Shown here piece after piece: positions 5,184-24,833 of a stretch of DNA of 64,000 bases. The notes under the pieces are model-generated. The model did no database searches. It had not been told where the DNA came from and saw only the letters and a program-made list of their open reading frames with translations. A program made the translations under genes and the position numbers. How positions within the stretch are numbered: the stretch's first letter is position 1; every line of letters starts with the position of its first letter. Source of the stretch: Rhodobacter calidifons (GTDB lineage Bacteria > Pseudomonadota > Alphaproteobacteria > Rhodobacterales > Rhodobacteraceae); assembly GCF_011174775.1 (NCBI RefSeq), contig NZ_JAANHS010000001.1, forward strand, positions 124,001 to 188,000. The letters run 5' to 3'.

Positions 5184-6329
5184 TCAGCCGACCCGGTTGC
5201 CCTGCACCCAGACGCCGCGAATGGCGCCCGCCTGACCGATCCTCGCCACCCGCACGATGTCGGCCCGGTGGCCCTCGACAAGCGCCCCGCGGTCGTCAAG
5301 GCCCACCGCCCGGGCCGGCGCGGCGGTGACCGTGGCAATCCCCCGCGCCACGTCGCCCCAGAGGTCCCCCAGCATCAGCGCCGCCGACAGCAGCGACGAG
5401 GGCACATAGTCCGACGACACGATGTCCAGAAGATCAGCCTCGGCCAGGTCCTGCGCCGCGACATTGCCGGAATGGCTGCCGCCGCGGATCAGGTTCGGCG
5501 CCCCCATCATCACCTTGATGCCATGCGCCTGGCAGGCCTCGGCCGCCTCGACGGTGGTCGGGAACTCGGCGAAATGCGCGCCATGCGCGGCGGATTGCAC
5601 CACATGGTCCGGCTCGGTGTCGTCGTGGCTGGCCAGCACCGCACCATAGCGGCGGGCAGCGGCGACGGCGGCGGCCTCGTGCGCCGCCCCCAGCCGCGCC
5701 CGCAGCGCCTTCTGCGCGGCGACATGCGCCTCCCAGTCGGCCTCGGAAATTCCGTATTTGCCGACATAGTAGTCCTTCAGCTTCGAGACATCGCGGAACT
5801 GCCGCGCGCCCGGCGTGTGGTCCATCAGACTGACGATGCCGATCCGGTCCTCGGGGCCGAACTTGTCCAGCTCCTCGATCAGGGTTTCGGAACAGACCTC
5901 GGCCCGCAGGTGCAGGAAATGGCTGATCTTCAGGGCGCCACCCGCGCGCAGGCCCAGGATCTCGTCGGCCAGCGCCCGGGCATATTCGCCATAGTTCATC
6001 CTGGTGTTCGACACGACCGACCCCACCCGCAGCGCGTCGAAGACCGTGGTGATGCCGACGCTGGCCAGCTCGGCGTCATGCGCGATGATCGCGGCGGCAT
6101 GCGGCCAGTCCACCTTGGGACGCGGCTGGATATGGCGTTCCAGGTTGTCGGTGTGGAGCTCGATCAGCCCCGGCATCACCAGGTCGCCGCCGCAGTCCAC
6201 CGCGCCGTGGGGCACGCCCGTACCCTCGGCAATGTCCTGGATGCGGCCATCGACAACGCGCAACTGCCCGCGCAGGGTTTCGGTCGGCAGCACCAGGGTC
6301 GCGTTGGCCAGGATCGTCTCGGTCGTCAT
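5184..6329 (-). CDS. phnM: PhnM, ribose-1-methylphosphonate-5-triphosphate diphosphatase
   Basis: PhnM is an amidohydrolase-fold enzyme of the C-P lyase pathway. It removes pyrophosphate from the triphosphate ribose-alkylphosphonate intermediate to give the substrate of PhnJ. The 381-residue protein carries the metal-binding HTDNLERH motif at residues 59-66 and a conserved HDD segment in the middle. It is transcribed away from the DUF1045 gene, and the 94-base gap between them carries a Pho-box-like repeat. It is separated from the main phnG-N operon by that gene, an arrangement seen in other alphaproteobacteria. Confidence 0.94.
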   Translation of the reverse strand: MTTETILANATLVLPTETLRGQLRVVDGRIQDIAEGTGVPHGAVDCGGDLVMPGLIELHTDNLERHIQPRPKVDWPHAAAIIAHDAELASVGITTVFDALRVGSVVSNTRMNYGEYARALADEILGLRAGGALKISHFLHLRAEVCSETLIEELDKFGPEDRIGIVSLMDHTPGARQFRDVSKLKDYYVGKYGISEADWEAHVAAQKALRARLGAAHEAAAVAAARRYGAVLASHDDTEPDHVVQSAAHGAHFAEFPTTVEAAEACQAHGIKVMMGAPNLIRGGSHSGNVAAQDLAEADLLDIVSSDYVPSSLLSAALMLGDLWGDVARGIATVTAAPARAVGLDDRGALVEGHRADIVRVARIGQAGAIRGVWVQGNRVG

Positions 6330-6372: not shown

Positions 6373-6390
6373 CTGACACAGATCCGTCAC
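6373..6390 (+). promoter_or_regulatory. Candidate PhoB box between phnM and the DUF1045 gene
   Basis: Two 7-mers, CTGACAC (6373-6379) and CCGTCAC (6384-6390), start exactly 11 bases apart, matching the Pho-box pattern of CTGTCAT-like heptamers with four-base spacers. The site lies in the short gap between two divergently transcribed phosphonate genes and could serve both. Binding is inferred from the pattern and from the known PhoB control of phn genes. Confidence 0.7.
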
Positions 6391-6423
6391 GCGCAAGTGA
6401 CAATCGCCCGCTAGGCCCCGCCC

Positions 6424-18051: not shown

Positions 18052-18094
18052 CGATCGTCCCCCGGTCGTGTTGAACGGGTCATAGCGGGAGAAT

Positions 18095-18134
18095 GTGACA
18101 GCTGGCGAAAACCGGGATGAAGCTTCTGTGACGG
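18095..18134 (-). promoter_or_regulatory. Candidate PhoB box upstream of phnC
   Basis: Reading toward phnC, four heptamers start 11 bases apart: CCGTCAC (18134-18128), GCTTCAT (18123-18117), GTTTTCG (18112-18106) and CTGTCAC (18101-18095). The first, second and last resemble the CTGTCAT Pho heptamer; the third is poor. The position 44 bases before the phnC start suits an activator site. It also suggests that phnC-phnD-phnE has its own promoter despite the genes upstream on the same strand. Confidence 0.7.
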
Positions 18135-18154: not shown

Positions 18155-19084
18155 CTACCAGCGGACGTGCGCGGGCCAGACGAAGGTCTCGTCCGGGTCG
18201 GGGATCGCGGGGCCGGCCAGCGCCATGCAGCGCCGGCGCAAGGTCGCGGCGATCTCGTCGCGCGGCACATGGGCCAGCATCTCGGACGTGACCGGCGCGC
18301 CGAGCGTCATTTCCAGCGGGCGCCCCATGCGGCGGCGGGTCTCGTGGAAGATCAGCGCCACGCGCAGGGGATAGGAGGTGTGGCTGGCGATCTGGAACAG
18401 GCGCGAGTTCTGCCCGGCGACATGCACCGGCAGCGTGGTCACGCCCGGCAGCGTGGCCAGCCGCCCCACGAAGGGGTGCCAGGGCGAATCGACCGCATGG
18501 CCCCGCAGCGGCCGGTTCGCCGTGGCGACGCCGCCGCCCGGAAAGACCGCCACCACCTTGCCCTCGGCCAGCAGCTGCGCCGCCTTGCGCCGGGTCTCGG
18601 CCGTCAGCCGCCGCGCCTCGGGCGTGCCCGAGAAATCCACCGGCAACAGATGCGGGTCCACTTCCGGCACCCGGCAGAGCAGGCTGTTGGTCAGGATCCG
18701 CACGTTGCCGCGCAGCCGCATCCCCAGCCAGCCCAGCGCCAGCCCGTCCAGCACCCCGAACGGATGGTTCGCCACCAGAAGCAGCCCGCCCTCGGGGCGG
18801 ATGCGCTCCTGCTCGGCCTCGTCGGCATGGACCCGCACCGCCACCCGCATCAGCCGCAGCGCGGCGTCGAACACGCTTTCCCCCGACCGCTTGCCCGACC
18901 GCGCCCAGTCCAGATACAGCCGCTCCAGCTTCGGCTGGCCCGACAGCCGTTCCACCGTGCGGATCAGCCGGCGGCGAAAGGCGGACTGGTCGGGGTGCGA
19001 ATAGGTGAAGCGCACCGGCTCGGCCGGGGTCTCGTCGAAGAAGGGGCTGGGTTCGGCAGGCAGGGGCAGCAGGTCGGTCAGCAT
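18155..19084 (-). CDS. PlsC-type glycerolipid acyltransferase
   Basis: The 309-residue protein has the acyltransferase block NHPFGVLDG (residues 106-114, the N-H-x4-D catalytic motif) and the glycerophosphate-binding FPGGG motif (181-185), which define the PlsC/lysophospholipid acyltransferase family. A GGAGG site precedes the ATG. It follows the second phnM-like gene by 31 bases and precedes phnC, so it probably belongs to the phosphonate-linked transcript. Its substrate is unknown. A link to lipid change under phosphate shortage, for example an OlsA-like step, is possible but is inference. Confidence 0.85.
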
Positions 19085-19115
19085 CGGGAAACCTCCGGGC
19101 AGCGGTTCGGCCCAG

Positions 19116-20357
19116 TCACGGGGCGGGTTCGAGGTGGGGCGCCGGGATCGCCGGCAGCGCGGAATAGCCGCCGCGCCCGGCAATCCAGGTCCGCAGCGGA
19201 GCGGGGGCATGGCCTTCCGGCCAGTCCAGCAGCACCAGATCGGCCCGCAGGCCGGGCGCGATGCGGCCCCGGTCGGCAAGGCCCATGGCGCGGGCGGGGT
19301 TGGCCGAGACCAGCCGCCACAGCACCGGCAGGGGCGCCACGCGGTCGGCCGACAGCCGCGCCACCGCGCCCAGCATGGCCGGATAGAAGTAATCCGAGGC
19401 CAGGATGTCGCACAGGCCCCGCGCGATCATCTCGGCCGCACCCGGGCTGCCCAGATGGCTGCCCCCGCGCATCGCATTCGGCGCGCCCAGCACGATGGCA
19501 TCGCCCGCCGCGCGCGCGGCATGGAACACCCGTTCGTGCATCGGGAACTCGGCCACCCTTGCGCCCAGCGCGCGGTAATGGGCGCGCGTCTCGACCTGGC
19601 TGTCGTCATGGCTCAGCATCGGCGCCCCGTGCCGCCGGGCCAGCGCCGCCAGCCGTTCGATCTGCCGCGGCACCTCGGCCCGGCGCTCCCAGACCCGGGC
19701 GATCAGCGCGGCATAGGCCTCCGCCGAGATCCCCGCGCGGCGCGACTGGTCGGCCATCTTCTTCAGGAAGCGCGGCGCGTCGAAGGGCGTCACCGGATAG
19801 TCCGGCACCTGGTCGAAGGGCCGGTCGTGCAGCGCCACGTCGGGATGCAGGAGCATCGCACTGGTGTGGTCGTTGAAGGCCAGCGCGGGACGGTCCGCCT
19901 CGGCCAGCACCTGCGCGATCAGGGGTTCCGCCTCGGCGCAGAAGGTTTCCCAGCGCAGCTGGATGCGGTTGTCCGCGGTCAGGCGCGGGCGCAGCGCCGC
20001 CAGCGCGTGGACGACCTGCCAGCCGGTCTCGACACTGCGCAGGCCCGGCTCCCAGCTCAGCGTCAGCGCATGATAGGCCGTGCCGATCCCGTTCGCGGCA
20101 AGCTGGCGGTCGGTCTCCAGCATGGCGGTCTCGACCGGCACCGTGACGCCGGGGCGCGGCATGATCTGGCGCTCGAAGGCGTCGCCATGCACATCCACGA
20201 AGGCCGGCGCCAGCACCCGGCCCCGCCCCGGCACCACCGCCGCCCCGTCGCGCGCCACGTCGATCCCGGTGATCCGGCCGGCCTCGATGCGGACCGAGGC
20301 GGTCTCGACCCGATCCTCCAGCACCACCCGCGCGCCTTCGATCAGCTCGGCGCTCAT
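19116..20357 (-). CDS. PhnM-like amidohydrolase, second copy
   Basis: The 413-residue protein is an amidohydrolase related to PhnM. The motif near residue 57 is HGDAFERQ instead of the HTDNLERH of the phnM at 5184-6329, and the MPRPGV that follows matches the PRPKV of PhnM. Other shared blocks include the LSHDD segment and GAPNAMRGGSHLGS. It differs enough that it may act on another phosphonate triphosphate or related substrate. Start and stop overlap its neighbours (ATGA with the methyltransferase), so it is firmly within the second phosphonate module. Confidence 0.85.
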   Translation of the reverse strand: MSAELIEGARVVLEDRVETASVRIEAGRITGIDVARDGAAVVPGRGRVLAPAFVDVHGDAFERQIMPRPGVTVPVETAMLETDRQLAANGIGTAYHALTLSWEPGLRSVETGWQVVHALAALRPRLTADNRIQLRWETFCAEAEPLIAQVLAEADRPALAFNDHTSAMLLHPDVALHDRPFDQVPDYPVTPFDAPRFLKKMADQSRRAGISAEAYAALIARVWERRAEVPRQIERLAALARRHGAPMLSHDDSQVETRAHYRALGARVAEFPMHERVFHAARAAGDAIVLGAPNAMRGGSHLGSPGAAEMIARGLCDILASDYFYPAMLGAVARLSADRVAPLPVLWRLVSANPARAMGLADRGRIAPGLRADLVLLDWPEGHAPAPLRTWIAGRGGYSALPAIPAPHLEPAP

Positions 20358-21022
20358 CCCAGCCGCTCCGCCAGCAGGTGCCAGTGCCAGGAGCCCGGCT
20401 TTTCATGCGGCCGGTCGAAGAGGGTAAGGACCTCGAAGCCCCAGAGCAGCGACAGCAGGTCCGGCGCGGTGCAGAAGTAATGCGGATGCACCTTGTCGCC
20501 CGGGCCTTCGAAGACCCAGGTGTTGCGGCTGATCTCGCGGCCCGGCGCGCGGGCCTGTTCCACCGGCAGGCGGCGGGCCGACAGCATGGTGGCCAGGAAG
20601 GTGCCGCCCGGCCGGGTGACGCGGGCCACCTCGGACAGGGCGCGGCGCACCACGGCCTCGTCGCCATGGTAGATCACGTTCCAGGCCAGGACGTGATCGA
20701 AGCTGGCATCGGCAAAGGGCAGATCGGTCATCGGCGCCTCGACCGTCTCGATGGTCAGGCCCTTCGCGAAGGCCGCCGCCGCGATGGCCGCGACCGCAGC
20801 CTCCGCCGCATCCAGCGCCGTGACCCGGTGCCCCGCCTCGGCCAGGGCCAGCGCATGGCGGCCGATCCCCGCCCCCAGGTCCAGGATGCGCGCGCCCGAG
20901 GGCAGCGTCGAGGCATGGTCCATCACCCAGGGCTCGGGGATGGCCCAGGGCGAGGACCCGTCGGACTTCTGCCATTCGGCGTTCCAGTAGCGATGTGCGG
21001 TGTCGGTGGTCATCTTGTTCAT
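20354..21022 (-). CDS. Class I SAM-dependent methyltransferase in phosphonate module
   Basis: The 222-residue protein has the class I motif LDLGAGIGRH at residues 47-56, the acidic strand end ALDAAE, and the post-II/III region of methyltransferase type 11/25 families. Its ATG overlaps the permease stop and its own stop overlaps the PhnM-like start, so it is translationally coupled on both sides. A methyltransferase is not part of the standard C-P lyase pathway. The methyl acceptor cannot be read from the sequence; an aminophosphonate, phosphonate ester or lipid head group would all fit the context. Confidence 0.85.
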   Translation of the reverse strand: MNKMTTDTAHRYWNAEWQKSDGSSPWAIPEPWVMDHASTLPSGARILDLGAGIGRHALALAEAGHRVTALDAAEAAVAAIAAAAFAKGLTIETVEAPMTDLPFADASFDHVLAWNVIYHGDEAVVRRALSEVARVTRPGGTFLATMLSARRLPVEQARAPGREISRNTWVFEGPGDKVHPHYFCTAPDLLSLLWGFEVLTLFDRPHEKPGSWHWHLLAERLG

Positions 21023-21822
21023 ATCAGCTTCCTGCGGATCCAGCCCGAGCCCTGCTCGACGGCGATGACCAGCGCCAGCAGCATCAGGATGATCGCCAGC
21101 GCCTCGTCATAGTTGAACAGGTCGAAGGCGACCTTCAGGTCCACCCCGATCCCGCCCGCGCCGACCAGGCCCAGCGCGGCGGACCCGCGCACCGATTTCT
21201 CCAGCGCGAAAAGCGAGGTGGCGGTGAAACTCGGCAGGCAGGCGGGCAGCACGGCCGACCCGATGATGCCCAGCCGGCTGGCCCCGATCGCGCGCAGCGC
21301 GTCCTGCGGGCCGGGGTCGGTCTCCTCCATCGCCTCGGCGAAGAAGCGGCCGGCAAAGCCGATCTTGTCCACCATGATCGCAAGCACCCCGGCGGCGGGG
21401 CCAAGGCCGACGATGATGATGAAGATGATCGCCCAGACCAGATCGGGCACGGTGCGGAACAGCGCGATCACCGCGCGCGCGACGGTGCGGACCAGGGGAT
21501 GCGGCGACAGCCGGTCGGTCGCCAGGATCGCGAAGGGCAGCGCGAAGATCAGGCCCAGGAAACAGCCCGCAACGGCCATCTGCAAGGTCTCCAGCAGTTT
21601 CCAGGAAATCGGCCCGATGCGGCTGAAATCCGGCGGAAACATCTGGGTGAACAGGCCCGAGGGCGCGAAAAGCCGCGTCAGCCCCCGCGCCAGCTTGTCC
21701 ATCGTCGGGGCCGTCGCCGCCAGCGACGAGACGACCAGCGCCCCCACCACCAGCAGCCCGACATAGCCCGGCAGGCCGATCTGGCGAAAGCGCGGCGGGG
21801 CGGGAAGGCTCGCGTCGCTCAT
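21019..21822 (-). CDS. PhnE-like ABC permease of the second phosphonate module
   Basis: The 267-residue inner-membrane protein has about six membrane helices and a PhnE-type coupling segment (FFAEAMEETDPGPQDALRAIG), with GAGGIGVDLK near the end as in PhnE proteins. It is coupled by ATGA overlaps to the ATPase upstream and the methyltransferase downstream. The only binding protein nearby in its operon is the PhnD-like gene at 22630-23496, so the substrate is probably a phosphonate, phosphite or similar phosphorus compound distinct from that of the first importer. Confidence 0.88.
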   Translation of the reverse strand: MSDASLPAPPRFRQIGLPGYVGLLVVGALVVSSLAATAPTMDKLARGLTRLFAPSGLFTQMFPPDFSRIGPISWKLLETLQMAVAGCFLGLIFALPFAILATDRLSPHPLVRTVARAVIALFRTVPDLVWAIIFIIIVGLGPAAGVLAIMVDKIGFAGRFFAEAMEETDPGPQDALRAIGASRLGIIGSAVLPACLPSFTATSLFALEKSVRGSAALGLVGAGGIGVDLKVAFDLFNYDEALAIILMLLALVIAVEQGSGWIRRKLI

Positions 21823-22622
21823 GCTGCGGCCTCATGGTCGAAGAAGCGCCGCAGTTCGCCGGCGCTGGCCGCGGGCGTGGGCATGTCCAGCGCGATGCGG
21901 CCCTGCGCCAGCCCGAGGATGCGGTCCGAGAAGGCCAGCGTATGCTCCAGCCGGTGCGAGATCACCAGCAGCGACAGCCCGTCCTGCCGCACGAGGCCAA
22001 GCAGCAGCTCCATAACCTCCTGCCCGGTCTGCGGGTCAAGGCTGGCGTCGGGTTCATCCGCCAGGATGAACTCGGGCCGCTGCATCAGCATCCGCGCGAT
22101 GGCGACGCGCTGGCTCTGCCCGCCCGACAGGCTGTCCACCCGGGCCAGCGCCCGATCGGCCAGGCCCACGCGGGCCAGACAGGCCATGGCCTCGGCCCGC
22201 ACCTGCGCCGGAGCCAGCGCCTGGGTCCAGACCCGCGGCCCCGACATCCGCGCCTGCGCGCCATGGATCACGTTCGACAGGGCCGAGAGGCGCGGCACCA
22301 GGTTGTGCTTCTGCCAGACGATCCCCACCCGCGCCCGGAACCGCCGCAGCGCCCGCGGCGACAAGGCCCCGACATCCTGCCCCAGCATCAGCACCCCGCC
22401 CGACGTCGGCTCAACCAGCCGCACCAGGCAGCGCAGCAGCGTGGACTTGCCCGATCCGTTCGCCCCGATCAGCGCCGTGGACTGACCCGGAGCCAGCGCG
22501 AAATCGACCCCCCGCAGGATCCCGGTCCCGGCAAAGGCCTTGGTCAGCCCCTGAACGGCAAGGACCGGCTCCACCAGGGTGGAACCGGCCTCGGCCCGGA
22601 CAGGAAGGACTGGAGCGTTCAC
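21819..22622 (-). CDS. PhnC-like ABC ATPase of the second phosphonate module
   Basis: Walker A is GANGSGKST at residues 53-61, the signature LSGGQSQR and Walker B FILADEP follow. The family is that of PhnC. The 267-residue call begins at GTG 22622, seven bases after the stop of the binding-protein gene; a GTG 16 codons later (22574, before EPVLAVQGL) is an alternative start because no strong ribosome site precedes the first. It is overlapped by the permease gene. Confidence 0.87.
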   Translation of the reverse strand: MNAPVLPVRAEAGSTLVEPVLAVQGLTKAFAGTGILRGVDFALAPGQSTALIGANGSGKSTLLRCLVRLVEPTSGGVLMLGQDVGALSPRALRRFRARVGIVWQKHNLVPRLSALSNVIHGAQARMSGPRVWTQALAPAQVRAEAMACLARVGLADRALARVDSLSGGQSQRVAIARMLMQRPEFILADEPDASLDPQTGQEVMELLLGLVRQDGLSLLVISHRLEHTLAFSDRILGLAQGRIALDMPTPAASAGELRRFFDHEAAA

Positions 22623-22629
22623 CGCGGTC

Positions 22630-23496
22630 TCACTGCCCGACGAATTCGGTGAATTCCTTGATGCCGATGTTCTCGTACATCCTGCGCACCACGTCATAGT
22701 CGGCGTCGGTGACCGCGGCGTTGAAGCTGCCGCCGATGTATTTCGCGTTCTCCTCGACCGAGGTGATCGCGGCAAGAAGGGTCTCGCCCTGTTCGGCAAA
22801 GGTCCTGCGCACGGTCTCCACCACCTCGGGCGCGACCCTGGACGAGGCCAGAAGGATGTCGTCGGGCAGCTGTTCCCCCTTCAGCAGGACGCGCAGCTTC
22901 ACGTCGGGGAGTTTCTTGGCCATGCTCTCGATATGGGTCCGGTTCAGACCGATCGCGCCGATGTCGCCCGCGATCAGCGCCTCGACGGCGACGTTGCGGT
23001 TCAGGAAGACGGGCTCGTAATCCACCGCATAGGTCAGCCCCGCCTTGGCCAGCAGATCGACCGGGCCAAGGTGCTGCGAGGTCGAGCCGATCTCGCCGAA
23101 CGAGATCTTCATCCCCTTCAGATCCGCCGGGTCCTTGACCGGGCTTTCGTCCAGGACGACCACGTTGGAATAATAGTCGGGCCGTGCGAAGGTGACGACC
23201 GGCTGCGCATCCAGCCGGGCGTTGAACACCACATATTCCGCCGGGCCGGTCAGCACGAAATCCACCTGGTCGGCGGCCATCGCCTCGACCGCGACGGTGC
23301 GGCCCGAGACCGGGAAGAATTCGACCTTCAGCCCCGAAGCGGCCTCGAAGGCCTCCTTGAACGGGCCCATGTCGCGCTGAAGCTGCTCCAGCCCGTCGAT
23401 GTCGGTGACGGCAAAGCGGATGGTCTCGTCCGCGACCGCGGGGGCGGCGAAGGCAAGGCTGGCGGCCAGAAGGCCCGAGGCGAGCAAGCGGTTCAT
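22630..23496 (-). CDS. PhnD-like phosphorus-compound binding protein of the second module
   Basis: The 288-residue protein has a signal peptide (about residues 1-22, ending AAPAVA) and the PhnD/SsuA-type fold, with AADQVDFVLTGPAEYVVFNAR in the first lobe and SFGEIGSTSQHLGP in the hinge region. It is clearly divergent from the PhnD at 16296-17198, which suggests another ligand. It is the first gene of a six-gene run (binding protein, ATPase, permease, methyltransferase, PhnM-like, acyltransferase) and has a four-unit Pho-box-like array just upstream. Confidence 0.88.
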   Translation of the reverse strand: MNRLLASGLLAASLAFAAPAVADETIRFAVTDIDGLEQLQRDMGPFKEAFEAASGLKVEFFPVSGRTVAVEAMAADQVDFVLTGPAEYVVFNARLDAQPVVTFARPDYYSNVVVLDESPVKDPADLKGMKISFGEIGSTSQHLGPVDLLAKAGLTYAVDYEPVFLNRNVAVEALIAGDIGAIGLNRTHIESMAKKLPDVKLRVLLKGEQLPDDILLASSRVAPEVVETVRRTFAEQGETLLAAITSVEENAKYIGGSFNAAVTDADYDVVRRMYENIGIKEFTEFVGQ

Positions 23497-23545
23497 GACA
23501 TGGATCCTGTCGATGCAAGCGATGGGTCTCGCTTAGCAGAGGCCG

Positions 23546-23585
23546 GTGACAACCAGGCGACGCGTAGGTTACAGTCCTGCGACAG
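23546..23585 (-). promoter_or_regulatory. Four-unit candidate PhoB box upstream of the second phosphonate module
   Basis: Reading toward the phnD-like gene, four heptamers follow at exactly 11-base steps: CTGTCGC (23585-23579), CTGTAAC (23574-23568), GCGTCGC (23563-23557) and TTGTCAC (23552-23546). Each resembles the CTGTCAT unit and the spacing is that of tandem PhoB dimers. It lies 50 bases before the start codon. This is the best Pho box in the window by regularity. Confidence 0.8.
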
Positions 23586-23648
23586 GGCCGGGGCGCGGCC
23601 AGGACCGCCCGCCTTCCCTTGCGGTTTTTCGTCGGCTAGCCTGCCCCC

Positions 23649-24833
23649 ATGACGAAAAACCGCATCCTGTCGCCAGCTCTCGATCCGACGCCCCCGGTCG
23701 ATCCGGCGGCCGAGCGGATGACCTTCACCGTCCTGCCCCGTTTCAACCTCGCCACGCTGATCACCATGATCGAGCCGCTGCGGATCGCGAACTACCTCGC
23801 CTCCCGGCCGCTCTATCACTGGCAGATCCTGTCGCCGGACGGGCCCGAGGTTCCGGCCTCGAACGGCCTGTCGATCGCCGCCGGCCCGCTGGACGACCGG
23901 CCGCGCCGCGGCGAGGCGGTGTTCCTGCTGGCCTCATGGGGGGCCGAGGACTATGCCGGGCGCCCGCTTCTGGCCTGGCTCCGCCGCCTGTCGCGCGAGG
24001 GCGCGCGGCTCTGCGCGGTCGAGCTTGGCGCCTATCCCATGGCGCGCGCGGGCCTTCTGACCGGGCGGCAGGTCGCGGTGCACTGGTCCTGGGCGCCGGG
24101 CTTCCGGGAACGTCACCCCGACATCGCGGTGGTGGAACAGCTGTACACGCCGGCGGAAACCGTGCTGACCTGCGCCGGGGGCATGGCCGGGATGGACCTG
24201 ATGCTGCGCCTGATCGCCGACCGCCACGGCGAAGGTCTGGCGGGAGAGATCGCTGACCAGATGCTTCACCACGGGATCCGCCCGGCCGACGCGCCTCAGC
24301 GCCGCACGCCTGGCCGGGGCACCGACCAGTTCGCCCCGGTCCTGCGTCAGGCCATTGCGCTGATCGAGGCGAACATCGCCGATCCCCTGCCCGTCCCCGA
24401 GATCGCCCGCCGGCTGGGCCTGTCCCAGCGCCAGCTGGAACGCCAGTTCCACCGTGGCCTCGGCTGTTCCGTCGTCCAGTTCGGCACCCTTGTCCGCCTG
24501 CAACATGCCCGCGTCCTGCTGATCGCCACCAAGCTGTCGGTCCGCGAGATCGCCACCGCGACCGGGTTCAACGCGCTGTCGCATTTCGCGTCCGCCTTCC
24601 GCAAATGCTTTGGCCGCCGCCCCAGCGACTACCGCCAGGGCTGGGCGCCGGGCGAGGCCACCCCCTCCTGGCCCGGCACGCTGACCGCCTATCTCGAGAC
24701 GCTGCGCCAGCGCACCACCCGCGCGGTGCGGGACGGGGCCTCCTCGTTCGCCTTCGTCTCCTCGTCGGCGGACCCCGGCGCGGAGAAGCCGCAGGCCTGG
24801 GACGAGCCGCCCGTCAGGCGAAGGCCGGGATGA
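23649..24833 (+). CDS. GlxA-family transcriptional regulator (DJ-1/PfpI plus AraC domains)
   Basis: The 394-residue regulator has an N-terminal DJ-1/PfpI-like domain (about 24-190), in which Glu lies where the amidase Cys would be (LCAVELGAYPMA), and a C-terminal AraC-type double helix-turn-helix (about 234-335, with VPEIARRLGLSQRQLERQF and REIATATGFNALSHFASAF). Relatives regulate betaine, carnitine and other quaternary-amine catabolism, and ligand binding replaces catalysis. The last 25 or so residues are encoded by a family D repeat and are not conserved regulator sequence. It converges with the monooxygenase gene (20-base overlap) and probably controls that catabolic set. Confidence 0.9.
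   Translation: MTKNRILSPALDPTPPVDPAAERMTFTVLPRFNLATLITMIEPLRIANYLASRPLYHWQILSPDGPEVPASNGLSIAAGPLDDRPRRGEAVFLLASWGAEDYAGRPLLAWLRRLSREGARLCAVELGAYPMARAGLLTGRQVAVHWSWAPGFRERHPDIAVVEQLYTPAETVLTCAGGMAGMDLMLRLIADRHGEGLAGEIADQMLHHGIRPADAPQRRTPGRGTDQFAPVLRQAIALIEANIADPLPVPEIARRLGLSQRQLERQFHRGLGCSVVQFGTLVRLQHARVLLIATKLSVREIATATGFNALSHFASAFRKCFGRRPSDYRQGWAPGEATPSWPGTLTAYLETLRQRTTRAVRDGASSFAFVSSSADPGAEKPQAWDEPPVRRRPG
24735..24812. repeat. Family D repeat, copy 1, inside the GlxA-type regulator 3' end
   Basis: The element runs from CCTCCTCGTTCGCCTTCG to GACGAGCCGCCC and is related to those at 28940-29030 and 32434-32512. Outer ends CTCGT and ACGAG pair, giving a long imperfect hairpin. Here it is translated as the regulator's tail (SSFAFVSSSADP and following), and the stop codon comes just after it. 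Confidence 0.75.

Follow-up and report, generated by a model that had tools for sequence, protein, structure and literature searches.

Does the 152-base gap between a phnD-like gene (22630-23496) and a divergent AraC-type regulator hold a phosphate-starvation promoter, and, if so, which genes would it control? We addressed this question for the window, by which we mean the whole stretch of 64,000 nucleotides of Rhodobacter calidifons DNA that was analysed. The original prediction placed four heptamers at 11-base steps, without deviation, in this gap, and the sequence bears out that arrangement on the minus strand:

23546-23585, minus strand, four PhoB-type heptamers, recognised from the sequence, from models trained on pstS promoters and from conservation in related loci
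23579-23585, minus strand, heptamer CTGTCGC
23568-23574, minus strand, heptamer CTGTAAC
23557-23563, minus strand, heptamer GCGTCGC
23546-23552, minus strand, heptamer TTGTCAC
23530-23535, minus strand, predicted -10 element TAAGCG, separated from the last heptamer by 10 bases

Read in this direction, the heptamers are separated by the spacers agga, ctac and ctgg, and 49 bases lie between the array end and the start codon of the phnD-like gene. The Pho box is described, in an excerpt of the literature, as direct repeats with seven conserved and four less conserved bases (PMC4415409), and the array consists of such 7 + 4 base direct repeats. A general repeat search over the 152-base gap found no repeat because the heptamers are too unlike one another.

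We evaluated the array with PhoB models trained on pstS promoters. The protein model TIGR00975 gave no hits for the genome's PstS and TIGR02136 was therefore used instead; 23 of its 30 loci, picked by eye on open-frame length, were taken as pstS promoters (left out were L074, L075, L079, L081, L083, L086 and L094, among which L074 is an over-cut-off PstS). The matrix set comprised 19 promoters, that is, the 23 minus the window's own L080 and minus L093, L100 and L102. Inspection by eye combined with an iterated matrix revealed four heptamers at 11-base steps in the pstS upstream regions of related genomes, and those of the genome's own pstS read CTGTCAT, GTTTTAC, CTGCAAT and GCGTCAC. Under the 19-promoter matrix, which excludes the own pstS, the window array scored 16.8 and the own pstS 31.0. 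The register one heptamer off (23557-23596) scored 17.9 against the in-register 16.8, which ranks second of 127,922 positions; when the matrix includes the own pstS, the in-register array ranks first. A register-free heptamer model gave it 27.4, the top rank in the window, and the single heptamers all scored positive in the model from pstS promoters (6.9, 8.0, 4.8 and 7.7), with heptamers 1 and 3 being weaker variants that end in GTCGC rather than GTCAT or GTCAC. The PhoB matrix scan that had been proposed as a check of the prediction, carried out here with pstS-trained models, picks the array locus as the best in the window. When 34 gene starts in the window were tested for a pstS-like array upstream, five passed at p<0.05: 23496 (phnD-like), 18051 (phnC), 6424 (DUF1045), 6329 (the divergent amidohydrolase beside DUF1045) and 49714.

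How readily chance yields such an array depends on the pattern used. None of 2,000 dinucleotide shuffles of the gap matched the array score under the 19-promoter matrix, and under the same matrix 7 of 300 shuffled 64-kb windows held a site that equalled or exceeded it. When up to three mismatches were allowed, the E. coli double-heptamer consensus told little about the window (6 matches, 10.35 expected); with two mismatches it gave 68 matches over the whole genome, compared to 22 in the reversed control. A loose four-in-phase pattern (four times GTNRY, at most one mismatch) showed no clear enrichment in the genome (12 matches versus 9 in the reversed control), and exact genome matches to it numbered only two, the window array among them. 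The genes after the other genome-wide pattern sites, named by eye without a family search, comprised a glycosyltransferase-like frame, a small membrane protein, a UvrC-like frame and others, with no clear further Pho genes among them. Elsewhere in this genome (locus L126, C56:254311-254348), a pstS-like array with TCTAGAC behind it lies close to a contig end.

Related loci provide a comparative view of the array. At p<0.05, a pstS-like array lay upstream in 27 of 30 family homologues, the own locus included; the antisense strand reached that level in 10 of 30, which is not a clean control, and stricter control stretches were therefore run. The comparative set consisted of 51 of 56 loci, all from named genomes; most belong to Rhodobacter, Tabrizicola and further Rhodobacteraceae, and a few to Hyphomicrobiales. 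Dropped were the apparent copies L142, L154, L155 and L171 as well as L181, which is without a gene start. An upstream array scoring at least 15 precedes the same phnD-like gene in 40 of the 51 loci. Arrays of this score were absent from all five controls, namely the antisense strand, coding sequence and coding antisense (0/51 each) and the further upstream stretch on both strands (0/50 each). The remaining 11 loci lack an array of at least 15, and several of them have only two or three heptamers. A step of 11 was the best among steps 8-16 in 47 of the 51 loci, with a mean best score of 19.2 compared to -0.2 to 3.7 at the other steps, and mean column conservation was 0.93 bits in the heptamers versus 0.28 bits in the spacers. 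Since the loci share ancestry, these counts over 51 loci are not independent and overstate the number of separate events. Nevertheless, the spacers have drifted across the related loci while the heptamers and their step stayed.

The distance from the array to the predicted -10 element is equally regular. No -10 was built into the heptamer models, and a TA lies exactly 10 bases past the last heptamer in 34 of the 41 arrays of at least 15 (the 40 related loci plus the window), while no other offset between 4 and 25 has a TA in more than 4 of the 41. Of the family pstS arrays, 20 of 21 share this offset, as do the phoA and pstS promoters of E. coli MG1655. Past its TA, TAAGCG is a poor match, as its sixth base is G and not the T/A of TAN3T/A. 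According to the available portion of one source, the E. coli Pho box precedes a -10 of this TAN3T/A type at a distance of 10 bases (PMC1906773), and an excerpt of another remarks on the strict spacing that separates the Pho box from the core promoter (PMC10294691). Three related loci (L012, L139 and L140) have six in-phase positions upstream of the phnD-like gene, the fifth of them weak, with the -10 shifted along and still 10 bases past the last position.

A comparison with known promoters places the array in a familiar class. E. coli pstS likewise has four heptamers (CTGTCAT, CTGTCAT, CTTACAT and CTGTCAC) at 11-base steps, followed after 10 bases by TA; it differs from the window array in being nearer the consensus and in driving the uptake of phosphate rather than of a phosphonate-type compound. 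The pstS promoters of this genome and its family share the four heptamers, the step and the TA offset, whereas their matrix scores are higher (for the own pstS, 31.0 versus 16.8) and their second heptamer often ends in TTAC. E. coli phoA shows the same spacing (CTGTCAT-N4-TTGTCAC, then TATAGT after 10 bases) in a single Pho box, with two heptamers where the window array has four. E. coli phnC, the promoter of a Pho-controlled phosphonate operon according to an excerpt of PMC10574752, resembles the window array in what it controls, whereas under the heptamer model its array is irregular with no TA at offset 10. The array is thus built like known E. coli promoters and almost certainly represents an ordinary phosphate-starvation switch. 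The further proposal that four heptamers in phase signify strong activation is unsupported: four is the usual pstS layout, in E. coli as in the family, and the window array scores below the own pstS.

The array precedes a run of six minus-strand genes that overlap or abut, opened by the phnD-like gene:

22630-23496, minus strand, PhnD-like periplasmic binding protein of 288 amino acids, first operon gene (Pfam Phosphonate-bd, E 4.8e-36)
21819-22652 (start tentative), minus strand, PhnC-like ABC ATPase (TIGR02315, 228 bits, under the cut-off of 266.1)
21019-21822, minus strand, PhnE-like permease (TIGR01097, 253.5 bits, over the cut-off)
20354-21022, minus strand, class I SAM-dependent methyltransferase (Pfam Methyltransf_25/11)
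19116-20357, minus strand, PhnM-like amidohydrolase (NF011987, 370.8 bits, over the cut-off)
18155-19084 (start tentative, a methionine inside a longer open frame), minus strand, lysophospholipid-type acyltransferase (Pfam Acyltransf_2; partial match to OlsF)

This run is followed by a canonical phnC-phnD-phnE-phnE operon and, farther on, by the C-P lyase genes phnK and phnL and the regulator phnF. In this setting, the description of the run as a second phosphonate module is a fair one, with a reservation about the binding protein, which at 70.4 bits falls below the cut-off of 261.1 for canonical PhnD (TIGR03431) and is below that of TIGR01098 as well. By sequence, its closest solved relative is the phosphite binder PtxB (5o2j, E 1.4e-20). 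Similarly, the PhnM-like protein passes the subfamily model NF011987 and fails the canonical PhnM test (TIGR02318, 293 bits versus 390.55); it should not be confused with the amidohydrolase encoded at 5184-6329, next to DUF1045. Matches to the neighbouring genes were found in related loci for the phnC-like (54/56), phnE-like (52/56), PhnM-like (39/56) and methyltransferase (35/56) genes, counts that are limited by the flank length, usually 3 kb on each side. The acyltransferase was present in L104, alone among 10 longer stretches from relatives, and in 2 of the 56 shorter loci, whose short flanks restrict what can be seen. The module at 18155-23496 on the minus strand is conserved in its predicted PhnD/C/E-like transporter, methyltransferase and PhnM-like hydrolase.

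Two further candidate arrays lie in the window:

18095-18134, minus strand, second array (CCGTCAC, GCTTCAT, GTTTTCG and CTGTCAC at 11-base steps), score 19.5
18079-18084, minus strand, TATGAC, 10 bases after the second array
6373-6417, plus strand, weaker candidate (CTGACAC, CCGTCAC and AAGTGAC at 11-base steps, then TAGGCC after 10 bases)

The second array (18079-18134 with its TATGAC) precedes phnC of the first module and has the same design as 23546-23585; under the register-free model these two are the only distinct arrays of at least 15 in the window, and both have TA at offset 10. The weaker candidate is situated between the amidohydrolase gene, PhnM-type by position, and the DUF1045 gene, and is doubtful because its -10 would end a few bases before the listed DUF1045 start codon.

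We considered whether the array might serve a protein other than PhoB. Two features on the opposite strand bear on this:

23649-24833, plus strand (divergent), AraC-type regulator, GbdR-like, below the cut-off of the GbdR model
23546-23575, plus strand, sigma-70-like match GTGACA-18-TACAGT for the GbdR-like regulator

The array could be the operator of this regulator, which would then control both itself and the operon. AraC-type proteins can bind direct repeats, the regulator starts about 63 bases from the array end, and its sigma-70-like site overlaps the array. The array nevertheless matches pstS promoters and is kept in 40 of 51 loci, whereas a relative of the regulator adjoins the operon in only one of the 51. 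We rejected this assignment, which we consider highly improbable, on the basis of that single adjacency; since the regulator adjoins so rarely and the operon genes are widely kept, the array belongs with the operon. It is conceivable, as a guess, that PhoB might also shut the divergent gene through the overlapping sigma-70-like match.

A different member of the OmpR/PhoB family would be a closer substitute for PhoB, as its regulators commonly bind direct repeats and the genome has at least six other full-length PhoB relatives. The heptamers, however, match those in pstS promoters as well as the PhoB sites of E. coli, and a single regulator of the genome exceeds the PhoB cut-off, so we give this alternative very little credence. 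Finally, the array could be a coincidence, with GTC-rich words lined up in a gap that is GC-rich. The shuffled windows that equalled it under the position-specific matrix and the loose patterns without enrichment are compatible with such an origin, whereas the local shuffles never reproduced it, and neither the fixed step and fixed -10 distance kept in related loci nor the empty controls agree with it. Given the comparative data, a chance origin is very unlikely, and we assign it next to no weight.

We conclude that the array is very probably a PhoB-dependent promoter in which two tandem Pho boxes, or four half-sites, switch on the six-gene operon at low phosphate. The original prediction of tandem PhoB heptamers serving 22630-23496 is well supported by the conserved array, the 11-base step, the fixed -10 distance, the pstS layout and the presence of a PhoB gene (G000:C5:63934-64605; TIGR02154, 336.1 bits, cut-off 296.2) found by genome search. 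From these features we infer PhoB binding, activation, a single six-gene transcript and a phosphate response. At low phosphate, PhoR would phosphorylate PhoB, and two PhoB dimers would bind the four heptamers head to tail; owing to the step of 11 bases, they would lie on roughly the same face of the helix. The promoter-proximal heptamer would stand in for a -35 element, with PhoB holding the sigma factor and RNA polymerase starting from TAAGCG, 10 bases on. The outcome would be a switched-on phnD'C'E'-methyltransferase-phnM'-acyltransferase operon. A precedent comes from proteomics of Phaeobacter sp. MED193, in which PhnC, PhnD, both PhnE, PhnI, PhnJ, PhnL, PhnM and DUF1045 increase under low phosphate, an induction that a phoB mutant loses, as given in the available part of Table 1 of PMC10132767. 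These PhoB-dependent proteins correspond to the first module and C-P lyase genes here; the second module is not visibly listed in that part of the table.

The array itself is textbook and of low interest; the operon that it marks is of moderate interest. For the family, the analysis yields a well-calibrated model of PhoB promoters, with four heptamers, an 11-base step and a -10 after 10 bases. For the organism, its value is that it puts an operon with an unassigned substrate into the phosphate-starvation regulon and thereby narrows the possible roles of the operon. We tentatively suggest, as one possibility that we would not yet favour over others, that this is an uncharacterised Pho-regulon module of Rhodobacteraceae and some Hyphomicrobiales, in which the cargo of a PtxB/PhnD-like importer may be processed by a dedicated methyltransferase and PhnM-like hydrolase, in places together with a lipid-type acyltransferase. 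Such a module could provide a route to a phosphorus source or serve to recycle headgroups, apart from the adjoining C-P lyase uptake operon.
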